Assembly: GCF_949987515.2 (NCBI RefSeq) | Contig: NC_082698.1 | Coordinates: 6,522,955-6,586,954, forward strand | Direction: 5' to 3' | Length of the DNA: 64,000 nucleotides | From: Delphinus delphis | Taxonomy: Eukaryota > Chordata > Mammalia > Artiodactyla > Delphinidae | Shown: positions 39,697 to 40,425 of the stretch, in pieces | How the letters are laid out: the number at the start of each line of letters is the position of its first letter | Position numbering within the stretch: the first letter of the stretch is position 1 | The notes under the pieces: generated by a model | The model's input: the letters and a program-made list of their open reading frames with translations, nothing else | Databases searched by the model: none | What the model was told of the DNA's origin: nothing | Program-made: the position numbers and the translations under genes

Positions 39697-39868
39697 AAAA
39701 TCAATACCAGAGATATGACAGTGACAAGGACCAGGCCCAGACAGAAGATGAACAGGGAAGAAGCTGCCCCAGATTGATTTCAGAAGGATTTCCTGGCATC
39801 CCAAGTCCCTGGACGATGCCTTTTATGACCGAAGAAAGCAGTTCATTTACTTCTTCAAAGGGTCCCTC
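39697..39868 (+). pseudogene. MMP21: MMP21 relic, penultimate exon
   Basis: The acceptor 'ttggctctcag' ends at 39696. The frame is open to 39806 and includes the hemopexin-type segment DSDKDQAQTEDEQG. A single C is missing in 'agtccctggacg' (39804-39813) relative to the expected Pro-Leu-Asp codons, which shifts the rest. The Trp expected after QY is Gln (cag). The right edge is 'ccctcgtaatag'; if the exon ends after ctc, the donor is GTAATA. Confidence 0.92.
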
Positions 39869-40134
39869 GTAATAGAAGGCTTTCCAGCCTGGTATTGCTT
39901 GTCATCCTTGACTGAAATTTGTCAGATGACCAAGTTCTTAGTTAAAAGCTGTTTTCAATTACTGCAGACCTATATATACGGCCATGGCAGATCATCCCAT
40001 CATACAGAAAATTATTAGGAACTTCAAGCCCAAAATATTTGGTGCAAAGCCACAGATTTGCTTACCTCGTTGCTATAAATGAACCTAAAAATCAATGACT
40101 TCCAGAAAAGCCAGTCTTAACTTTGCTTTGCAAG

Positions 40135-40425
40135 TGTTTGCATCGATGTGAATAGAAATCAAGTCCTTGACCCTTATCCGATGAAGATGATTAAGGTTTT
40201 TTCCGGAAATAGAGCCACAAAGCCATTCTGTCAATGTAGACTCAGCTGACTACTCCTGCACTCACCGCTCGCCTTCTGCAAAGGCAGCACGTGCTGGAAA
40301 GTTGTCAATAGCAGGGACAAACAACAGATTCCTGGCTGCCTTCAAGTGGCTTATTTCCCAAGCAGTTTAGCTCAGAGCAGTGGCTTGACGTCTGTGACGT
40401 TGATTCCTGCATCCTGAACTCGTGA
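40135..40425 (+). pseudogene. MMP21: MMP21 relic, terminal exon
   Basis: The acceptor is 'tttgctttgcaag'. The frame breaks near 40143 (missing base in the Phe codon before DVNRNQ). It breaks again in the middle, where the FFFKG hemopexin strand is damaged, and near 40326 (one A missing after DKQQ). The last stretch, SWLPSSGLFPKQFSSEQW then LDVCDVDSCILNS, is intact to the TGA at 40423-40425. Similarity over nearly the whole exon leaves no doubt about its origin. Confidence 0.93.

Follow-up and report, generated by a model that had tools for sequence, protein, structure and literature searches.

Two decayed exons between UROS and EDRF1 mark a very probable unitary MMP21 pseudogene in a cetacean genome

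The locus between UROS and EDRF1 raises the question of what has become of MMP21, a protease of the left-right organizer, in the cetacean genome considered here, and whether the gene has only decayed in place or has also lost a part of its sequence. The human gene has seven coding exons spread across 9.3 kb, according to the available text of PMC11764533. The DNA analysed in the present study, referred to below as the window, is a stretch of 64,000 nucleotides (G000:C16:6522955-6586954) containing no N, taken from a genome of 2.66 Gb in 630 contigs, and the MMP21 lesions were read from this one assembly. It is very likely that the locus is a unitary MMP21 pseudogene, which arose by deletion of exons 1-5 and decay of exons 6 and 7. 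Judging from its sequence, it is no longer able to produce the protease. The features discussed are collected in Table 1.

Table 1. Position and supporting evidence of the MMP21 relic, its neighbours and the CIROP relic (positions in the window unless a contig is given)
Feature	Position	Strand	Evidence or remark
UROS C-terminal exon part (HEM4), left neighbour	30148-30252	+	24.8 bits (under cut-off) in one search; 28.8 bits, cut-off 27.5, E 8.4e-07 in another
Interval expected to carry exons 1-5	30253-39696	+	11 overlapping segments (residues 1-120, 156-407) within shuffled background
MMP21 relic, last two exons	39697-40425	+	Frameshift-tolerant profile alignment, tblastn, conceptual reading
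Exon 6 relic	39697-39869	+	Donkey residues 409-465 and parts of split codons; acceptor AG kept at 39695-39696
Exon 6/intron 6 junction, out of phase	39869-39875	+	Single G where the exon end and the GT donor require two
Intron 6 remnant	39870-40134	+	Ends in acceptor AG at 40133-40134
Exon 7 relic	40135-40425	+	Residues 466-563; stop TGA kept at 40423-40425
EDRF1 exon (TPR_EDRF1) in open frame, right neighbour	59259-59690	-	E 1.4e-32
Further EDRF1 exon (TPR_EDRF1) in open frame	61203-61526	-	E 2.5e-12
CIROP relic, nearly full-length	G000:C2:74676689-74682002 (L044:4689-10000 and first bases of L045)	+	tblastn, most exons in order

The relic belongs to MMP21 and not to a paralog. Residues 228-436 of the conceptual frame of 39101-40426 (P0001), in which stops were read through, were used as a query, and all six proteins retrieved at E ≤ 1 were MMP21 (donkey, two elephant shrews and three bats), donkey MMP21 being the best match (E 4.5e-13). 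In a tblastn search of the window with 12 MMP21 orthologs, 39699-39871 and 40134-40419 were matched with E values as low as 1.4e-20. Donkey MMP21 (564 aa) served as the reference, together with an alignment of 24 orthologs and a profile built from the first 20 of them, all placental. With frameshifts tolerated, the profile scored 248 at exon 6 (39699-39871) and 272-275 at exon 7 (40134-40419); apart from these places, the two profile segments reached at most 62.8 on both strands of the window and of its reversed copy. Identity to the donkey protein amounts to 47 of 58 codons (81%) in exon 6 and 62 of 96 codons in exon 7. The presence of intron 6, with acceptors kept at both exons, indicates that the relic is not a processed copy, and the numbering as exons 6 and 7 follows from the seven coding exons of the human gene and the stop codon present here. 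When the genome was searched with the generic Pfam hemopexin family (E ≤ 0.001), 17 matches were obtained, none at the relic, so MMP21 itself was needed as the query. The best 120 of 536 MMP21 matches, in which each row stands for one representative of a cluster, include no named cetartiodactyl, bird or reptile, and P0102 is nameless.

The relic lies at the ancestral locus, with UROS on one side and EDRF1 on the other, an order and orientation that we take to be the mammalian one from the human map. The earlier note on this DNA had placed two neighbouring MMP21 exons, in the expected orientation, between these genes, and the six protein matches, the tblastn search and the HEM4 and TPR_EDRF1 neighbours bear this out. 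All UROS and EDRF1 exons checked are open, and an open frame at 63127-63474, on the EDRF1 side, had no Pfam match. Elsewhere in the genome, a 606-bp one-block HEM4 match with an internal TAA (G000:C11:26990093-26990698, plus strand, L029) looks like a processed UROS copy.

The search of the whole genome with donkey MMP21 gave 42 matches at E ≤ 10. Four of them fall in the UROS-EDRF1 locus, and these are the strongest for hemopexin residues 393-563. The remaining 38 show at most 55% identity in short blocks and are taken as paralogs collectively, not named one by one. An intact MMP21 elsewhere in the genome, which by the earlier note would have refuted its reading, was not encountered: no better copy was found among the 42 scored matches.

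The locus is disabled by five frame-changing indels, one in-frame deletion and a junction out of phase, in addition to the undetectable exons 1-5. In the profile alignment, exon 6 has a 1-bp deletion near 39809, and exon 7 has a 1-bp deletion near 40142, a 1-bp insertion near 40199, a 3-bp deletion near 40233, a 4-bp deletion near 40271 and a 1-bp deletion near 40327. The at least four apparent 1-bp frameshifts reported previously are therefore four in the frameshift-aware alignment, joined by the 4-bp deletion and the in-frame 3-bp deletion. The acceptor before exon 7 leaves TG as the start of this exon, so exon 6 is expected to end in G before GT; the junction sequence CTCGTAATAG (39866-39875) contains one G only. 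The disagreement of splice phase between the two exons that had been claimed is thus real, the ancestral phase being read from the exon 7 acceptor of the relic itself and not from another species. Among the columns invariant in all 24 orthologs, six of 39 are changed (W412, Y431, P497, Y505, H558 and S560), as are nine of the 57 that do not vary among the 20 placental rows, codons adjoining an indel being omitted from both counts. Counting against the pseudogene are the absence of in-frame stops in the 154 aligned codons and the 81% identity of exon 6, which might point to a remnant that is young or still under constraint.

CIROP is also broken in the same genome. The Peptidase_M8 family search revealed a stop-containing match on contig C2, at a distance of roughly 200 kb from a locus of the hemopexin family, which is presumably MMP14 by the human map. 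The reading of this match retrieved 112 proteins at E ≤ 1, with CIROP orthologs on top. In the CIROP relic W155 and R360 are replaced by stops, G453 is followed by an additional stop codon, and one base is deleted near L044:8097. A frameshift alignment of the whole gene, in which gaps spanned the short introns, was set aside, and CIROP was realigned in 17 hand-placed blocks. The closest sequence is the humpback model P0123 (E 3.9e-67), followed by rabbit (5.0e-46), which places the genome among the cetartiodactyls and, within them, the cetaceans. The humpback model is marked LOW QUALITY and represents the same kind of relic; the two differ in 25 of 500 codons, compared in ungapped pieces chosen by hand. 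A shifted stretch before HCYL is common to the CIROP relic and P0123 and is unshifted in muntjac P0234.

Nothing of the coding sequence of exons 1-5 (residues 1-407) could be detected across the 9.4 kb that separate UROS from exon 6. The scan of this interval covered residues 1-120 and 156-407, on either side of the variable linker (121-155); the 11 segments scored 28.2-47.0, none above the maximum of its own 40 dinucleotide shuffles, and the most extreme one, residues 306-365, was equalled or beaten by two of 40 shuffles. The genome-wide donkey search found no match to residues 1-392 within the window. The power of the scan was assessed with five donkey segments outside exons 6 and 7; each was back-translated, and 30 mutated versions of it were made. 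At 8% substitution the segment means were 179-245 (minimum 154), at 16% they were 134-184 (minimum 93), and at 25% with 3% indels they were 86-128 (minimum 33). The scores of the relic match simulated decay of 8% for exon 6 and 12-16% for exon 7. Exons decayed like exons 6 and 7 would have shown, and far more decayed ones could be missed. Since decay of that degree would be plain, it is most likely that the 5' part of MMP21, about 70% of its coding sequence, was deleted in one or more events.

Several weaker similarities in this part of the window were rejected. Exon 1 candidates from tblastn and the profile at 22.1-22.4, 23.1 and 30.2 kb, and matches in the simple repeat at 25.9-26.4 kb, are Pro- or Arg-rich or repetitive; their profile scores lie between 39 and 47, with maxima of 47-51 for the reversed window. 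A catalytic-domain candidate at 23765-24068 (plus strand) scored 76.4, slightly above both the reversed-window maximum of 66.9 and the maximum of 64.1 among 12 locally shuffled windows. It was nevertheless judged a chance match, and a moved fragment improbable: its 34/94 identities are reached only with 14 gaps or shifts, its position is on the far side of the UROS exon, and it is the top score among seven segments on two strands. The simple repeat at 25.9-26.4 kb is long, and its open frames are Pro/Ser/Leu-rich on one strand and Gly/Arg/Glu/Lys-rich on the other.

Gradual decay only, with all seven exons still in place, exons 1-5 mutated past recognition and exons 6-7 readable, appears improbable. 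It draws on the small-indel decay visible in exons 6 and 7 and on the simulations, in which power weakens at 25% substitution with 3% indels: one case of residues 356-407 at 25% substitution fell to 33, which is background, and this counts against the deletion. However, exons 6 and 7, with scores of 248 and 275, resemble sequences with roughly 8% to 16% simulated substitution, and 5' segments simulated at that level have means of 134-245 and minima of at least 93, whereas the scores found in the interval never rise above the shuffle maximum. The earlier description of gradual decay and not a clean deletion consequently holds for exons 6 and 7 and finds no support for exons 1-5, where deletion is most likely.

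An intact MMP21 in the individual, dropped or garbled by the assembly, is very hard to credit: the use of one assembly, without reads, leaves room for such a fault, but six separate indels are found within 154 codons, both neighbours have open exons in a window free of N, and absence of the gene in whales and even-toed mammals has already been published (available text of PMC5872349). There is just as slight a chance that the two exons were re-used and kept as a short functional transcript or a regulatory element, as the similarity of exon 6 to the donkey sequence (47/58) and its freedom from stops in the aligned codons might suggest. The frameshifts, the splice defect and the 6/39 changed invariant residues exclude the ancestral reading, and slow neutral change, as in the CIROP relic compared with humpback (25/500 codons), explains the retention.

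The unitary pseudogene with a deleted 5' part is, accordingly, the reading adopted here, and its history may be pictured as follows. In an ancestor, MMP21 would have ceased to be under selection. Exons 1-5, and with them the signal peptide, the prodomain and the catalytic domain, would have been removed by deletion, at once or in several events, and exons 6 and 7 would have drifted, before or after the deletion, gaining small indels and the splice defect. The likely cause, to which published comparisons point, is that left-right symmetry is broken in this lineage without a flow driven by cilia, which would have made MMP21, CIROP and PKD1L1 dispensable.

The absence of Mmp21 in Cetartiodactyla, whales included, is stated in the available text of PMC5872349, which cites Guimier et al. 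(2015); the same text describes the ciliated organizer as absent in pig embryos. The gene and the animal group are the same as in the present study. The text available states the absence only, whereas here the remnant, the indels and the missing exons are mapped for one genome. The earlier note had described MMP21 as missing in whales and even-toed mammals, in agreement with PMC5872349 and with the broken CIROP in the same genome. As far as the texts available go, PMC5872349 was the only paper found with both MMP21 and Cetartiodactyla, and the wording 'MMP21 loss' was found only in PMC9484203. No described MMP21 pseudogene was found in the literature searched, outside which lie the originals of Guimier et al. 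(2015) and Szenker-Ravi et al. (2022). The paper on a cetacean gene loss database (PMC12462620), supplements aside, has no occurrence of MMP, PKD1L1 or CIROP as whole words, and PMC11912448 has none of the terms sought for an MMP21 pseudogene or loss. The MMP21 loss described here is an already known gene loss, seen at sequence level and with the correction that concerns the deletion.

The 2022 study by Szenker-Ravi et al. is said to count MMP21 as one of the five lost proteins. In the available text of PMC9816872, which summarises Szenker-Ravi et al. (2022), five proteins are lost together with the ciliated organizer, and CIROP is named and MMP21 is not. The genome studied here shares the CIROP loss with that set; in contrast to that work, it provides MMP21 and CIROP only, at sequence level and in one genome. 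Cetaceans lack PKD1L1, of which sperm whale and vaquita retain traces of exons at the gene's own locus, and the loss was placed by inference in the ancestor of cetartiodactyls (PMC11266680, in the text available). PKD1L1 is a different gene but, like MMP21, a left-right gene lost with traces at its own locus. The MMP21 remnant alone confirms a published pattern, and the absence of MMP21 is one genetic sign that left and right may be determined in whales and even-toed mammals without a flow driven by cilia. Now that the remnant is mapped and its lesions are listed, it can be tested whether MMP21 was lost once, in the ancestor of the group, or more than once, and whether its loss coincided with those of CIROP and PKD1L1.

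The age of the losses can be approached through the placental-invariant columns. Change at these columns reaches 9/57 in MMP21 and 27/240 in CIROP (Fisher p 0.37), which corresponds to approximately 0.08 and 0.05 substitutions per nonsynonymous site, respectively, assuming 2.2 sites per codon. Both fractions exceed the difference of CIROP from humpback (25/500), so the MMP21 and CIROP losses appear, on this comparison of sequences, to be much older than the split from humpback. Substitution rates in whales are slow and uneven. A date in years was set aside, as scaling by humpback overshoots. The expectation that the lesions could be dated holds insofar as the invariant-column changes point to an old loss; it does not extend to anything finer, and the dating is weak.

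Frameshifts per codon amount to 5/154 in MMP21 versus 1 to 4/639 in CIROP (Fisher p 0.0013 to 0.017; p 0.044 with the two CIROP stops added and the extra stop after G453 uncounted), a contrast that is weak because hand-placed blocks hide shifts at block edges. Three of the four lenient CIROP shifts lie in one badly aligned block. It is possible, though rather doubtful, that the left-right set was dismantled stepwise, with MMP21 lost perhaps first, in the cetartiodactyl ancestor, and CIROP perhaps independently in whales and in ruminants, at a time when symmetry breaking by flow had already lapsed. MMP21 may have gone first, since it is without catalytic exons and has more frameshifts per codon, and CIROP may have died separately in the two groups, since its frameshift is consistent with humpback and absent from muntjac.

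Further putative partners in the lost left-right gene set are PKD1L1, CIROZ and DAND5, of which CIROZ and DAND5 were probed by Pfam family only. The CIROZ domain PF15094 has two stop-free matches on the minus strand (G000:C1:8335701-8335823 and 8336144-8336221), with profile positions 35-64 missing between them. A match to the DAN domain that contains an in-frame TAG (84.9 bits; G000:C6:63947165-63947389, minus strand, L038) possibly represents a broken gremlin-family gene.
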